Shown: piece by piece, positions 49,711-60,572 of the stretch
How positions within the stretch are numbered: the first letter of the stretch is position 1
How the letters are laid out: every line of letters begins with the position of its first letter
NCBI GenBank assembly: GCA_031291845.1
Contig: JARLIH010000072.1
Span: forward strand, 1 to 64,000
Length of the DNA: 64,000 nt
Source of the DNA: Isosphaeraceae bacterium
GTDB lineage: Bacteria > Planctomycetota > Planctomycetia > Isosphaerales > Isosphaeraceae
Direction: 5' to 3'
Notes under the pieces: generated by a model
The model's input: only the letters and a program-made list of their open reading frames with translations
Told to the model about the DNA's origin: nothing
Databases searched by the model: none
Program-made: the position numbers and the translations under genes

Positions 49711-49785
49711 GATGCGAAAAAGGGCCCAGGACCGGTTGAGCACCGGTACGGGCCACCTTTTTCGCATTGGCACCTTTTTCGCATC
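49711..49785. repeat. GGTGCC-type palindrome, diverged copy
   Basis: GATGCGAAAAAGGG at the left and GGCACCTTTTTCGCATC at the right flank an inner ACCGGTTGAGCACCGGT. A further CACCTTTTTCGCAT is present. It is a diverged member of the family best seen at 54653-54698. Confidence 0.65.
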
Positions 49786-49851: not shown

Positions 49852-50040
49852 AATGGGACTGATGATGCCGCCGAGCCGCTGGTCACGTTACGTGTCCTCC
49901 ACCGCGGTTCGCATCGCGTCGGCAACCGGCCTGATCGCATGGAACCGCGAGCTGTGAAACGCCGTCCCAAGTCGCACCCTCTGCCGACTGCCCCTCGCGA
50001 ACAGGCCCACGCCGCGCTGATCGCCAGCAACTCGGCGTAA
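49852..50040 (+). pseudogene. C-terminal remnant of an IS4-type transposase
   Basis: The frame that ends at TAA 50038-50040 reads HRVGNRPDRMEPRAVKRRPK followed by SHPLPTAPREQAHAAL. This is the basic tail typical of IS4-group transposases in planctomycetes (pattern NRP.R.EPRAVKRRPKP...L). A stop at 49849 precedes it and no DDE catalytic motif is present. It is therefore a remnant of the last 60 or so residues. It lies 140 bases before the ATPase gene pair. Confidence 0.7.
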
Positions 50041-50178
50041 CCTCAAACATCGCAAGCGGCAGCGCCACTCAGGCCAGGAACCATTCGCTGACTCAAAGAC
50101 GGCGGCGAGAAAATACCGTCCTGTATTTCTACGATCCCGTATATTGACGACCACCCGGATATGCCGTAAACTTTGGGC

Positions 50179-51361
50179 ATGAGAAACATTACTTGGCAAT
50201 CCGGTCGAAGGTGATGACTTCTTCGACCGTCCGAAAATCTTGGCTCGGCTTCATCGGGAGTTGGAAAACCAGGCCAACATCCTGTTGGTCGCGCCGCGTC
50301 GCGTCGGGAAATCCTCACTTGTCATTCGGCTCTGTAAGCAGTGGCAGTCGAGTCCAAAGCGGAAGGCGATATTTTTGAACGTGGAGGGGCGCGGCGATGA
50401 AATTGCCTTCGCAGAGAAGCTGCTCGAGGAACTGGAGACGGTCGGGCTCACGGCCGAGACCGTGACGCGGGCGATTGCCGCCGTGCGCAAGTTTCGCCAG
50501 GGACTGGGGGGAGCCGGGCTGAACGTGGCCGGCCTGGAAATAAGCCTCGGTGAGGCAGCGGACCCGAACCACTCGACCTTGCGCAAAGTGCTCGAGTCCG
50601 TGTTCCGCAAGATCAAAGACGGCGACACCCAGGTCCTCATCGCCATCGATGAGTTGCCAGAATTCCTGCTGACTCTTCGGAACGCAGAGCAAGGTCCCGA
50701 CCGGGTCGCCGCGATCTTGCACTGGCTCCGCGAGTTGAGGCAAACCTTCCGCAAGAAAGTGCGATGGGTGTTCCTCGGCTCGATTGGCCTGGATAACTTC
50801 GTCGAGGACCAGAAACTTCAAAAGCTGATCAACGACCTTCAGGTGGCGACGCTGGACGCGTTTTCCACGGAAGAGGCCGACGCGTTCTTGAAGGCACTCG
50901 GCGAATCGAATGAGCTGCCTCTCGAGACCGCCGAACGCGACGAGATCGTTCGGCGCGTGGGTTGGCCCTTGGCCTATCACCTGCATCTGGTGTTCCATGA
51001 GCTCCGCGATTTGGAGACGCGCTCGATCGTCCAGGCGTTCAATTCGCTGCTCCAGCCCCAGAAGCTCTCTTACTTCGACACGTGGCGCGAACGTATCGAC
51101 GTGCAGTTTTCCCTGCCGGACGCTGCCGCGTGCAAGGCAATCCTGCGCCACCTGTCGACGCACGCCGAGGGGCGCGAGCGTGAACACCTTCTTTCTGTCC
51201 TCATGGCCAAACCGTCATCGGACGTAGAGCAGGTTGAAGAGCAACTCTCCCGCCTGCTCATCGTCCTCCAGCGCGACGGCTACTTGCACGAGAGCGGCGG
51301 CCGCTACGCGTTCCGTTCCTTCCTGCTGCGCGAATACTGGCGCCGAAGGCATGGCCGATGA
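50179..51361 (+). CDS. P-loop ATPase of a two-gene unit (frameshifted start)
   Basis: The intact frame runs 50183-51361; its first standard start is TTG 50240. But ATG 50179 begins MRNIT, and removal of one T at 50193/50194 joins it to GNPVEGDDFFDRPKIL in the intact frame, which is the usual opening of this ATPase family. The P-loop is LLVAPRRVGKSSL and Walker B is VLIAIDELPEFLL. The rest is helical with a winged-helix-like end (GRYAFRSFLLREYW). It belongs to the archaeal-type/STAND-like ATPases. The next gene starts inside its stop codon (ATGA). Confidence 0.85.
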
Positions 51362-54300
51362 ATGGCACCGCGATCAGCGTCAGCCAGCTCACACTCTACA
51401 ATCCCGCCAGGCTCAAGGACGCGGAGGTGATCGCCGCGTTCGTCGCGCGGTTGGCGCTCTATGAACGTATCCTGGCCGATGTCGCCGCCGAGAAACCGAA
51501 CAAGCGGCCGCAGCACCATCTGATCGTCGGCCAACGCGGCATGGGCAAGAGCCTGTTGCTGGCACGCCTGGCGGCCGAACTCAGGACGAGCGCGAAATTT
51601 TCCCAGGGCTTCGTGCCTTTGGTTTTCGCCGAGGAGCAGTATGCCGTCGATCGGTTGTCGAAGTTCTGGCTGAACTGCCTCGATTCGCTCGCCGACGCAG
51701 CGGAACGTGGGGGAGACACGGCCGCCAGCGACCACATCGACGTCGTTGTCCGCGGATTGAAGCCTCGATCCCTCGGCACGGGGGAAAAAGACGAACTCGC
51801 GGCCCGCGCTGCGCTCGACGCCTTCCTGAACGCGGCGACGACAGGTGGTAGACGGCCCGTTTTACTGGTCGACAATCTCCAGTTGGTGTTCGAACGCATC
51901 ACCAAGGTCGAGCAGCACGCCCTACGCGAGTTGCTGATGCGTCCCGGCAGCCCGATCCTGGTCGGTGCCACTCCGAGCCCGCCGCCCGAGAGTCGGGAAT
52001 ATGATGCTGCCTTCTACGACCATTTCAAGGTCCACTACTTGCGACCCCTATCCTCCGTAGAGATGCGCGAGCTGATCCTGAAGCTCGCGGACATCACTCG
52101 CAGGCCGGACGTGCGCGACAAAGTGCTAGCCCACCCGGAACGTTTGAAAGCCCTCCGCGACCTGACCGGCGGCAACCCACGGACCGTGGTCACACTCTTT
52201 TTCCTCTACGCCGAAGACTTTTCCCCAAGCGTCTTCGCCGACCTGGAAAACCTCCTTGACCGCGTGACCCCCCTCTACAAAGCGCGCATTGAGGAACTGG
52301 CCGAGCAGCAGCAAGTGGTCGTCAGCGCCGTTGCCGATGCCTGGAGGCCGATCACCGCCCGCGGCCTCTCCGAAGCAACTGGCCTGCCGATGGCGAACAT
52401 CTCCGGTCAGCTCGACCGGCTGGAAAAGACGGGCTTCGTGGAGAAGGTCGAAATCTTCGGTGACACCGCGACCGGCTACCAGATCGCGGAACGCTTCTTC
52501 AACGTCTGGTTCCTGATGCGCAGCGCCTCCCGTCGCCAGCGGCGCGAGGTCGAGTTCCTCGTCCGCTTCCTCGAAGGTTTCTACGAAGTCGCGGATCGTC
52601 GTCGTCTGGCCGCGCACTTGATGAAAGAACGTCGCTTCAGCGCGGACCGCTACCAGTTCGCCAGGGCCCTGTCGTACACCCTGGACCGCGAGGACGGCGA
52701 GGAGCTGACCCGCCATGCCGAGCTCGCCGCTCTGCGCGAGAAGGCGCTCGAAGCCAGGCGCGAGCTCGAGGAGGTCATCGACTTCTCGAGTCTACCACCG
52801 GCGACCTTGGCCTTTCACGAACTGCGCGAAAAGCTCGCGGCTCTTGTGCCCGACGGCCTTGGTGTGACACCGGAGCGATTCACGGAAGAGGTGCTCGGCA
52901 GCCGGGAGATGTTCATCCGCGGCGAACGGGAGCGGCTAGCGGCTACCCGTCGAAAACTGAACCGAAAGACAATCCGCGCGGTCCTCGAGTCGATCGACAC
53001 TGCGAGAAAACAAGACGAGTCGAGGTACGGAAAAAACTCGGTCGCATGGTTCGATCAGCAGCTTGCCACCGGACAGTTGCGAGCCATGGGAGACCTGGAC
53101 GATTGGAATCGCCTCTTCGTGAAGGCGTCCGGGAGGGATTCGGTGCAATTGATGGTCGATACGATCGATCGTGTGATCGCTTCGACCCTGAGGGACGACG
53201 TTCGTTTGCAGATTCTGAATTGGCTAGCCCCTCCGTCCGGTTCCACGCCTCGAAAGTGGTGTCAGTGGGGTTTCGAATTAGCTTCCAAACTCGGTTGGCA
53301 CGCCGAGGCTGAGCGGGCCTTCCGTAAGGCGATCGAGATCGATTCGTCCGACGCGGCTGGATGGGACAACCTTGGCAACCTGCTTCGGATTTATCTTGGT
53401 CGCTACGAGGAAGCGGAGGCCGCCTACCGCAAAGCCATCGAGATCGATCCAGATAACGCCTGGCCTTGGGGCAACCTTGGTGACCTGCTTCGGATTCATC
53501 TCGGTCGCTACGAGGAGGCGGAGGCCGCTTACCGCAAAGCCATCGAGATCGATCCAGATGACGCCTGGCCCTGGAATGGTCTTGGCGATCTGCTTCGGAG
53601 ACATCTCGGTCGCTACGAGGAAGCGGAGGCCGCCTACCGCAGGGCCATCGAGCTCGACCCAGAAGAGGCCTCGCATTGGAACGACCTTGGCAACCTGCTT
53701 CGGGACCATCTCGGTCGCTACGAGGAATCGGAGGTCGCCTACCGCAAGGCCATCGAGCTTGATCCAAGAAACGCCTGGCCTTGGAACGGCCTTGGCGGCC
53801 TGCTTCGGCGTCATCTCGGTCGCTACGAGGAATCGGAGGCCGCCTACCGCAAGGCCATCGAGCTTGATCCAAGAAACGCCTGGCCTTGGAACAACCTTGG
53901 GGACCTGCTTCGGGATGATCTCGGTCGTTATGAAGAATCGGAGGCCGCCTACCGCAAGGCCATCGAGATCGATCCACGAACTGCCACTTACTGGAACGGT
54001 CTCGGCGATCTCTATTGCGGCCCTTATCGAAGATATTCGGATGCGGCTTCGGCCTACGAGAGCGCACTTGCCATCGACGACTCAAATTTGCGGGCTCGGA
54101 ACAACCTTGTTTTCCTGCATCGGGACCTGCTGGGAGATCAGCAGTCGGCGAACCGTATCTTTAGTTCCGAACCGCCAGCATCTTTTTTTGCGGAGGATAC
54201 GTTCTATCTCCACGAAGCCCTTTTCGCCGCCTACGATGCGAATTGGGGTACTTGCAAGCAAGCCTTGGCCAAGGCGATCGATGTGATCGATCACGGTTTT

Positions 54301-54600
54301 CCTGCCAACTCGATCGACGACTGGTTCCGCGCCAGCGCCGTGCTGCTGCACCTGAACTACGGAGAGGAGCTGATAGCCTTCCTGCGCGAGCGTGGCGACG
54401 ACGTTCGGTTACGTCCCTGGTTCGAGGCGCTTTCCGCGCTGCACCAGGGAGACCGCCGGTACCTCGAGAACATCCCCGTCGAGGTACGGGCGACGGCGGA
54501 GCACTACTTCGACCATATCGATAAGCGGCTGAGTGCTTTGCCGGAGAAGACCCGCAGGCGTCCAATGCGGAAACTGGCCAAAAAGCGTCGGAAACCGTGA
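51358..54600 (+). CDS. AAA/STAND-like ATPase with TPR repeats
   Basis: 1080 residues. The P-loop GQRGMGKS is at 58-65 and Walker B VLLVDN near 168-173, followed by helical and winged-helix regions (PITARGLSEATGLPMANIS, then GYQIAERFFNVWFLMRS) to about 450. From about 645 to 925 there are eight TPR-like units with an unusual 35-residue period (LGRYEEAEAAYRKAIEIDPD.A core). A helical tail of 150 residues ends it. The layout, ATPase plus TPR sensor, resembles STAND-type signalling and anti-phage proteins. The start overlaps the stop of the upstream ATPase gene, so the two are translated together. Confidence 0.88.
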   Translation: MNGTAISVSQLTLYNPARLKDAEVIAAFVARLALYERILADVAAEKPNKRPQHHLIVGQRGMGKSLLLARLAAELRTSAKFSQGFVPLVFAEEQYAVDRLSKFWLNCLDSLADAAERGGDTAASDHIDVVVRGLKPRSLGTGEKDELAARAALDAFLNAATTGGRRPVLLVDNLQLVFERITKVEQHALRELLMRPGSPILVGATPSPPPESREYDAAFYDHFKVHYLRPLSSVEMRELILKLADITRRPDVRDKVLAHPERLKALRDLTGGNPRTVVTLFFLYAEDFSPSVFADLENLLDRVTPLYKARIEELAEQQQVVVSAVADAWRPITARGLSEATGLPMANISGQLDRLEKTGFVEKVEIFGDTATGYQIAERFFNVWFLMRSASRRQRREVEFLVRFLEGFYEVADRRRLAAHLMKERRFSADRYQFARALSYTLDREDGEELTRHAELAALREKALEARRELEEVIDFSSLPPATLAFHELREKLAALVPDGLGVTPERFTEEVLGSREMFIRGERERLAATRRKLNRKTIRAVLESIDTARKQDESRYGKNSVAWFDQQLATGQLRAMGDLDDWNRLFVKASGRDSVQLMVDTIDRVIASTLRDDVRLQILNWLAPPSGSTPRKWCQWGFELASKLGWHAEAERAFRKAIEIDSSDAAGWDNLGNLLRIYLGRYEEAEAAYRKAIEIDPDNAWPWGNLGDLLRIHLGRYEEAEAAYRKAIEIDPDDAWPWNGLGDLLRRHLGRYEEAEAAYRRAIELDPEEASHWNDLGNLLRDHLGRYEESEVAYRKAIELDPRNAWPWNGLGGLLRRHLGRYEESEAAYRKAIELDPRNAWPWNNLGDLLRDDLGRYEESEAAYRKAIEIDPRTATYWNGLGDLYCGPYRRYSDAASAYESALAIDDSNLRARNNLVFLHRDLLGDQQSANRIFSSEPPASFFAEDTFYLHEALFAAYDANWGTCKQALAKAIDVIDHGFPANSIDDWFRASAVLLHLNYGEELIAFLRERGDDVRLRPWFEALSALHQGDRRYLENIPVEVRATAEHYFDHIDKRLSALPEKTRRRPMRKLAKKRRKP
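53290..54010 (+). repeat. 105-bp tandem repeats encoding TPR units
   Basis: Units begin with CTTGGTCGCTACGAGGA-like bases about every 105 bases (53395, 53500, 53605, and so on to 53920). They are nearly identical in DNA, including silent positions, over the six central units. The flanking units (near 53290 and 54030) are more diverged. Confidence 0.85.
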
Positions 54601-54630
54601 ATTCGCAGTGCCTTCGTTGAGGCACGAAAA

Positions 54631-54704
54631 TGCGGAAAAGGTGCCAAATGCGGAAAAGGTGCCAGGAACCGTTGATCAACGGTTCCTGGCACCTTTTCTG
54701 CTCC
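54631..54704. repeat. 46-bp perfect palindrome, best copy
   Basis: From 54653 to 54698 the sequence is a perfect 46-bp palindrome. One half is GAAAAGGTGCCAGGAACCG followed by TTGA, and the other is its exact complement. It is preceded by an extra ATGCGGAAAAGGTGCCAA and followed by TGCTCC. Related copies are at 60518-60572, 58152-58233, 49711-49785 and 48373-48412. Confidence 0.85.
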
Positions 54705-54815
54705 GAGGCGGGCAGGATCATGTGAGGTCATCATCTCATGGAGGACCGACCTCGGCTTACTGACGATCCTGTGTGGGGTAAAGACCCCGCGGGGAGTTCC
54801 CGTGGGTGAAGCTGT
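54703..54815. repeat. 113-bp dispersed element, copy 2
   Basis: Second copy of the element at 48249-48362, same orientation, from CCGAGGCGGGCAGGATCATG to GGGTGAAGCTGT. Starts immediately after the 46-bp palindrome. Confidence 0.75.
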
Positions 54816-57626: not shown

Positions 57627-58371
57627 GAGGGCGATCCTCTCTGGGGGCGGAACGGAGCGGCGTCTATGGGACCCATGCGTACGTCAAAACGTACCCAGGA
57701 CGGGCGCCAAAGACAATCCAGCTCACTCCGACCACCCGTGCGAGCCGGTCGATCCAGTCCGCCTCGGAGCGCAATCAGCCGCACCCCCACGCTGCCAGCC
57801 AGGCGACTGCCCCGCTGAAGGACATCACGAAGGGCCCAGCGTCAGACCTAGTTTGCCGAATTGGTGTACATGGGCTTGGCCACCCTGACCCAGACTCGGC
57901 CCGACCTTGTAACCAAGCTTTTCGATGGGGGCCGTGCTCTTGGCCATCGTTTCAAAGCCTTGCGGAATAAGGGAACAAAGCTACAGTCCAATAGACGCAT
58001 CGGCGCCCGCGCAGGTTCGGCTTCAGCAAAAACCGAACCACCAAATCTGGTGAGCTACATGGGTCGTGACCAGCACAGTCGGTCGCGGCCGGCCGGCGAC
58101 TCCGAGCCGACCGTAGTAGAGGAATCCCAGCCCGACGACTCCGAGGAACAGGATGCGGAAAAGGTGCCAGGATGCGGAAAAGGTGCCAGGAACCGTTTGG
58201 TACCTTTTCTGCTCCTGATACCTTTTCTGCTCAGGGCGACTCGACCCGATTTCATTTCTCTGAACCGCATGGCGGTAGAGAGCGGTGCAATAGCGGCCGC
58301 CTCCTGACATCAACAATACAGATCCGGCTTCGGGCTGGACAAGCATGGACTGCGATCGATGCGGGGCAGCG
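57627..58371. other. intergenic region with palindromic repeats
   Basis: No intact gene. On the minus strand 58018-58150 reads as a hydrophobic stretch (FLGVVGLGFLYYGRLGV), perhaps a chance frame or a membrane-gene remnant. A GGTGCC-type repeat lies at 58152-58233. Confidence 0.45.
58152..58233. repeat. GGTGCC-type palindrome, copy with tandem arm
   Basis: ATGCGGAAAAGGTGCCAGG occurs twice in a row, then AACCGTTTGGTACCTTTTCTG and a further ACCTTTTCTGCTC close the hairpin. Same family as 54653-54698. Confidence 0.75.
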
Positions 58372-60517: not shown

Positions 60518-60572
60518 TGCGGAAAAGGTGCCAGGAACCGTTGATCAACGGTTGCCGGCACCTTTTCTGCTC
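60518..60572. repeat. 46-bp palindrome, near-perfect copy
   Basis: From 60522 to 60567, ATGCGGAAAAGGTGCCAGG leads to GTTGATCAAC and a right arm with two differences (GTTGCCGGCACC). It lies between the SDR and DUF418 genes, which are convergent, and may act as a terminator for both. Confidence 0.8.

Follow-up and report, generated by a model that had tools for sequence, protein, structure and literature searches.

A Sparsely Distributed Two-Gene STAND ATPase Cassette Preceded by a Predicted Tandem-Palindrome Operator

Results and Discussion

The Two ATPase Genes Form One Self-Contained Unit

A 64,000-nucleotide stretch of DNA from an Isosphaeraceae bacterium (contig JARLIH010000072.1, positions 1 to 64,000), hereafter the window, was analyzed with respect to two overlapping ATPase genes, gene 1 and gene 2, which run from 50,179 to 54,600. 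The two genes are one unit, and this unit recurs in other bacteria as a self-contained and sparsely distributed cassette. The explanation favored here, with a probability of about 0.6, is that the cassette is a portable operon encoding a two-protein STAND switch, which regulates its own expression and is triggered through the tetratricopeptide repeats (TPRs) of the second protein. STAND proteins underlie the immune receptors of plants and animals and several bacterial defences. A fixed division into catalytic and non-catalytic subunits, an exchangeable sensor and a dedicated operator would make the cassette a compact system for the cooperation of STAND subunits and the silencing of dangerous switches.

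Relatives of the pair were searched with either gene as bait. The two genes were in tandem on the same strand in 44 of the 44 loci that carried gene 1, and these pair loci were distributed over Planctomycetota, Verrucomicrobiota, Acidobacteriota and two plasmids (Moraxella and Segatella). When gene 1 only or gene 2 only was used within the three phyla, the partner was adjacent at every locus, down to identities of less than 36%; a GTDB genome scan with gene 2 returned 11 relatives, all of which had gene 1 directly upstream. At most loci, the start of gene 2 and the stop codon of gene 1 were about 10 nt apart or less. In the window, the two P-loop ATPase frames described in the initial annotation were recovered, with an ATGA overlap at 51358-51361. 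The adjacency is far beyond chance and is accompanied by one shared regulatory element, in agreement with the earlier proposal that the pair acts together; homologues were neither rarely neighbours nor fixed in housekeeping operons.

The pair was present in at least 2 of 79 relatives, at least 9 of 392 Planctomycetota, at least 12 of 388 Verrucomicrobiota and at least 6 of 347 Acidobacteriota, that is, about 2-4% of the sampled genomes; these values are lower bounds, with the best three to five candidates per genome scored in the phylum searches. The all-against-all comparison of neighbours gave no conserved third gene. The neighbours differed at each locus and few genomes carried the pair; therefore, the cassette is self-contained and sparse. 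It is mobile or often lost, and not a fixed part of defence islands. Even the 75%-identical cassette of a Planctomycetota relative (G079) was found in a gene context different from that of the window. The host genome contains a second pair on another contig (G000:C500:17266 to the contig end, L063), which is 36% identical and has its own CAACA-type palindromes upstream. Moreover, one gene was damaged or internally deleted in several copies, namely gene 1 in the window, L049, L053, L089 and L105, and gene 2 in L015.

A related arrangement was observed on two alphaproteobacterial plasmids, of Agrobacterium and Sphingobium (L066 and L067), in which a gene 2-like ATPase-TPR protein occurs without gene 1, beside adenylate/guanylate cyclase genes. 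The Sphingobium locus also adjoins a Pycsar-type effector and AbiEii.

A Tandem Palindrome Marks the Promoter of the Pair

In 13 close loci, the window among them, gene 1 is preceded by two ATACA-N4-TGTAT palindromes with a 2-bp A/T linker (Table 1); the element had been overlooked in the initial annotation. ATAC and GTAT were near-invariant, the N4 spacers were free to vary, and a TTGAC box directly abutted the operator in most close relatives. In distant pairs the geometry was retained with different half-sites, in most cases CAACA-N4-TGTTG spaced by 15 bp, and the Moraxella pair had three AACTAT...ATAGTT repeats. When one rule was applied to the same loci, tandem palindromes 15-16 bp apart were detected in 24 of 41 pair promoters vs. 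5 of 339 promoters of other genes (Fisher p ~2e-22, an optimistic value since the loci share ancestry).

The element was also sought at the genome scale. In 10 of the 11 genomes of the window's clade, the full ATAC-type element (up to 3 mismatches) occurred at the pair only, and the eleventh had a one-base shorter form; in the window genome, the pattern was found at the pair operator and nowhere else. A reversed-pattern control gave 0 matches in those 11 genomes. The CAACA-type element, sought in nine genomes, matched at the pair promoters and at three other places. One of these (G868) led to a previously unknown, decayed second pair with an internally deleted gene 1 (L105, 5459-7755), which was thus found without any protein search; the operator can serve as a sequence signature for finding further copies. 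Another match (G895) had two mismatches and looks like chance. At L104 (5464-5492, G1012), a perfect double CAACA-N4-YGTTG without an ATPase pair nearby was observed, perhaps a remnant operator.

No regulator gene common to the loci was detected in the all-against-all comparison of neighbours. Because no such gene accompanies the cassette, we infer that the element is bound by a product of the cassette, with gene 2, through its winged helix, as the likeliest candidate. Since the full element was found only at the pair in 10 of the 11 genomes of the window's clade, and the distant clades' version revealed a further pair, the cassette probably regulates itself. Autorepression seems likelier than activation in the window's clade, because the promoters there read as ordinary sigma-70 promoters, with TTGAC, a spacer of about 17 nt and a -10-like hexamer.

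Gene 1 Is the Predicted Catalytic Subunit

The gene 1 protein resembled Pfam ATPase_2 in profile matches. According to its AlphaFold model (mean predicted local distance difference test score of 78), the closest folds were PABY2304 and SSO1545, followed by Orc1/Cdc6, NB-ARC proteins and CED-4. The nearest structures by fold were 2qen and 2fna, and by sequence 2qen alone was matched among the solved structures, weakly. The modeled AAA+ core places gene 1 among STAND proteins of the MNS/ATPase_2 (SSO1545) type.

The similarity to Orc1/Cdc6, although ranked after SSO1545, raises the question of an Orc/Cdc6- or TniB-like ATPase pair that would serve DNA maintenance or a mobile element, and for which the palindromes would be an initiator or partition site. 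The tandem sites are iteron-like, and the window copy is flanked by hairpin repeats and a transposase tail. However, the sites hold a fixed place against the -35 box in the window's clade. No transposase, integrase or replication gene was conserved with the pair among the locus neighbours, and no relative was found in IMG/VR or phage records. This explanation was considered very improbable.

The two proteins differed in their Walker B motifs. The motif was DE in every gene 1 copy where it could be aligned, whereas gene 2 had D-N or E-N wherever it was readable, with Asn in place of the catalytic Glu. Walker A of gene 2 was GK[ST] in nearly all copies. Hence, to judge by these motifs, gene 2 probably binds ATP and hydrolyses it poorly. 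The persistence of this asymmetry across great divergence is the strongest protein-level sign of unlike subunits, and it fits the earlier suggestion that the first ATPase helps the second.

The Window Copy, as Assembled, Carries a Frameshift in Gene 1

Gene 1 had been read from the ATG at 50179. The ATPase reading frame is real and open from 50183 to 51361, but this ATG is out of frame with it and is followed by a stop after 11 codons; no ATG, GTG or TTG in the coding frame precedes 50240. In relatives, the N terminus is MRNITGSPVE...; when the window was aligned with L005, its closest relative, one extra base appeared in the window about 13-15 nt past the ATG, after which the frames agree. 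Therefore, gene 1 is either frameshifted here or the assembly is faulty, a point that the initial annotation had missed. Alignment alone points equally to true decay and to a draft-assembly error. As assembled, the window copy is probably non-functional, with gene 1 either inactive or mis-assembled.

For the window copy alone, a decaying pseudo-operon without function was given even odds, and such a state is compatible with each of the family-level explanations. It is suggested by the one-base frameshift just past the gene 1 start and by the degraded copies elsewhere (L049, L053, L089 and L105). On the other side, the rest of both frames has no interruption across more than 4.4 kb and is about 75% identical to L005, and a draft-assembly error would look identical.

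The decayed copies also bear on an addiction module, i.e., a selfish unit of the toxin-antitoxin kind that autoregulates through a palindromic operator and is retained because its loss harms the host. In type II toxin-antitoxin systems, a palindromic operator autoregulates a short operon of overlapping genes; an overlap and a predicted operator are present here, and the operon layout, its dedicated operator, the varied insertion points and the decayed copies would all suit such a module. However, the cassette encodes two large ATPases and a sensor array, and no toxin domain was found in the proteins. Furthermore, a broken gene 1 persists with an open gene 2 in the window and in L049; therefore, these hosts survive gene 2 on its own. 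An addiction module was accordingly regarded as improbable, less so than a DNA-maintenance pair.

Gene 2 Combines an ATPase, a Winged Helix and a Fast-Changing TPR Array

Gene 2 is intact in the window. It encodes, in order, an AAA_16-like ATPase, a MarR-like winged helix (about aa 316-376), a helical region, the TPR array and a conserved C-terminal region; the winged helix, which had significant similarity to MarR-family structures, thus lies between the ATPase and the repeats. It also has a GxP-type motif, LTGGNPR. Walker A, LTGGNPR and the winged helix would assign gene 2 to STAND proteins of the MNS/ATPase_2 type, as judged from motifs and the model; the fold search returned TPR proteins only. 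The description of a STAND-type protein with a TPR sensor, a long TPR array and a helical tail was borne out by the Walker motifs, the winged helix, seven TPR units of 35 aa and a C-terminal part made of helical repeat.

The TPR units of the window resembled one another more (mean best match of 84% at the nucleotide level) than they resembled the units of L005, its closest orthologue (70%), in which only two units were counted with the same motif. A within-gene likeness as in the window was found in L015, and other relatives were not clearly so. The array length varied among relatives. In L012 and L013, the entire helical and TPR part was absent and the C-terminal region was retained. The array is thus a product of recent within-gene expansion, a process also known for repeat sensors elsewhere among STAND proteins. 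Distant pairs carried another type of TPR (TPR_12), or a NACHT and FGE-lectin module stood in place of the TPRs (one distant homologue). At L057 (1604-14948), where gene 2 of the pair ends in NACHT and FGE-lectin, further NACHT-FGE proteins were observed on both flanks, with N termini that by eye, not by profile, look nucleotidyl-cyclase-like.

The winged helix directs attention to a MalT/IniR-like signalling regulator of the host, whose TPRs would sense a metabolite or stress and which would control host genes. IniR is a transcription regulator in which an SSO1545-like ATPase is coupled with a MalT-like repeat domain (PMC5760070); an SSO1545-like ATPase, a helical-repeat sensor and a DNA-binding domain are common to MalT/IniR and the present pair. 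However, MalT and IniR are single proteins with a C-terminal helix-turn-helix, whereas here there are two proteins, the winged helix directly follows the ATPase, and no regulon is visible: the double site was found only at the pair's promoter in the window's clade, single 14-bp sites not having been searched. No conserved target gene was nearby, and the distribution is sparse. The pair was not placed with MalT/IniR, the C-terminus of gene 2 being helical repeat with no helix-turn-helix after it, and a host regulator of this kind was judged unlikely, but the least unlikely of the alternatives at the family level.

Comparison With Paired STAND Proteins and Bacterial Defence ATPases

The closest published analogue is nSTAND2, described by Kaur et al. 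(2021, eLife, PMC8195603, Fig. 6C) as a mobile two-gene operon of two STAND NTPases, one of them impaired and with a variable C-terminal module, which is predicted to form a hetero-multimer. In the sections of that paper on nSTAND2, it is placed near CR-ATPase/DAP3/RNA12, the inactive partner has eroded NTP-binding motifs, and the modules are GT4 or HEPN. A two-gene STAND operon, one catalytically impaired partner and a variable C-terminal module are shared with the present pair. In contrast to nSTAND2 as described there, the two proteins here resemble SSO1545/ATPase_2 or AAA_16, each retains Walker A (in nearly all copies for gene 2), and the module is usually TPR and once NACHT-FGE. The best profile matches were ATPase_2/AAA_16, with one weak DAP3 match in one homologue, and GT4 or HEPN gave no match in the gene 2 proteins scanned. 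An operator, as found here, is not mentioned for nSTAND2 in those sections. Identity with nSTAND2 was rejected on the NTP-binding motifs and modules set out there. The literature search found no report of an operator or a catalytic asymmetry for this pair family, and nothing on paired STAND proteins beyond nSTAND2. Since two defining features of nSTAND2 given in those sections, the eroded NTP-binding motifs and the GT4 or HEPN modules, were not found and no earlier account of the operator or asymmetry was found, the pair is a variant distinct from nSTAND2.

The same paper names the Npun2340/2341 family of the MNS clade of STAND NTPases (Leipe et al., 2004). In its fold, gene 1 agrees with the MNS type, as far as the clade is characterized there. 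The name Npun2340/2341 implies two consecutive Nostoc genes, perhaps a pair of this kind, whose adjacency may thus have been noted as early as 2004. The layout matched no named experimental system, as had been stated earlier. The label "undescribed" stands in this respect and should be softened in another, since Kaur et al. (2021), in the sections cited, mention both the Npun2340/2341 family and a different two-gene operon, nSTAND2.

Like Avs and bacterial NACHT proteins (PMC10907252), the pair has a STAND ATPase and a C-terminal sensor, which in those proteins is sometimes TPR. Unlike the known members, which have a fused N-terminal effector, the present proteins begin with the ATPase itself. 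They matched no Avs or bNACHT profile, and with neither an N-terminal effector nor a defence-profile match the pair was left outside that group.

Proposed Switch and Possible Role in Defence

The unit, its asymmetry and its operator are well supported, and the following mechanism is proposed on this basis. Gene 1 would be the ATP-hydrolysing subunit. Gene 2 would bind ATP, hydrolyse it poorly, and carry the DNA-binding winged helix together with a fast-changing TPR array through which some partner protein or cue may be sensed. In the resting state, the tandem palindromes by the -35 box would be occupied by one of the proteins, most probably gene 2, or by both, and expression of the operon would thereby be held down. 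A trigger meeting the TPR region would cause ATP-dependent assembly of both proteins and thereby alter DNA binding, which would raise expression and switch on the output, possibly one directed against phages or other elements.

Several results weigh against this explanation. Under the strict rule, 17 of 41 pair upstream regions lacked a recognised double site. The choice of operator binder, gene 2 or gene 1, was inferential, and the operator class tracks phylogeny too closely for co-variation with the recognition helix to be informative. Effector domains of the nuclease, NADase, protease or membrane type were not detected in the two proteins, PADLOC reported no known defence system, and the variable chromosomal neighbours were mostly housekeeping or unrelated genes.

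The defence role put forward in the initial annotation is plausible, and its evidence differs between replicons. About 1 in 40 chromosomal neighbourhoods had an obvious defence neighbour (L093, type I methyltransferase fragments), and an enrichment in defence islands was not seen on chromosomes. Both annotated plasmid pair loci had defence-type neighbours: the Moraxella osloensis pair adjoins Qat, a protein kinase and transposases, and the Segatella copri pair adjoins a WYL regulator and DUF262 genes. A more ambitious version, held only tentatively and as more doubtful than the switch itself, is that the cassette represents a new family of immune switches, in which a catalytic STAND protein and a hydrolysis-deficient, DNA-binding TPR STAND protein share one complex. 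That complex would be both the sensor-effector and the sole regulator of itself through clade-specific tandem palindromes, so that sensing of an invader would amount to derepression.

Genomic Setting of the Window Copy

The window is part of a 9.7-Mb draft genome of Planctomycetota type. Judged by the ATPase pair, its nearest relative in the GTDB genome scan with gene 2 was a Gemmataceae metagenome-assembled genome. A same-genus genome (G001) lacked both the pair and any clear match to the flanks, so that an insertion junction was not demonstrable from it. The coordinates of the features are listed in Table 1.

Table 1. Features of the ATPase pair and its surroundings in the window.
Feature	Position	Strand	Description
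Predicted operator	50113..50142	+	Two 14-bp palindromes, ATACCGTCCTGTAT, TT, CTACGATCCCGTAT; 16-bp start-to-start; consensus ATACA-N4-TGTAT
Predicted sigma-70 promoter	50144..50172	+	TTGACG 50144-50149, 17-nt spacer, TAAACT 50167-50172; ATG at 50179
Gene 1, MNS/ATPase_2-type STAND ATPase	50179..51361	+	Walker A APRRVGKSS, Walker B IDE; one-base frame shift between ATG 50179 and the open frame
Gene 2, STAND ATPase	51358..54600	+	1080 aa; Walker A GQRGMGKS, Walker B VDN
TPR array in gene 2	53357..54085	+	Seven near-identical units of 35 aa (105 nt) each
Conserved C-terminal region of gene 2	54130..54540	+	LHEALFAAYDxNWG...RLRPWxEALxALxxGDRRxLQNI; kept even in homologues without TPRs
REP-like palindromic hairpins	49711-49785, 54629-54701, 58177-58196, 60522-60567		AAAAGGTGCCAGGAACCGTTGATCAACGGTTCCTGGCACCTTTT and relatives; bracket the ATPase pair

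The transposase remnant at 49852-50040 was backed by IS4-family matches, as an IS4-like transposase tail. Of the two repeat elements previously placed at 54631-54815, hairpin repeats were recovered immediately downstream of the pair; their family is not confined to that site, for it recurs farther along the window and a relative of it sits upstream of the pair.

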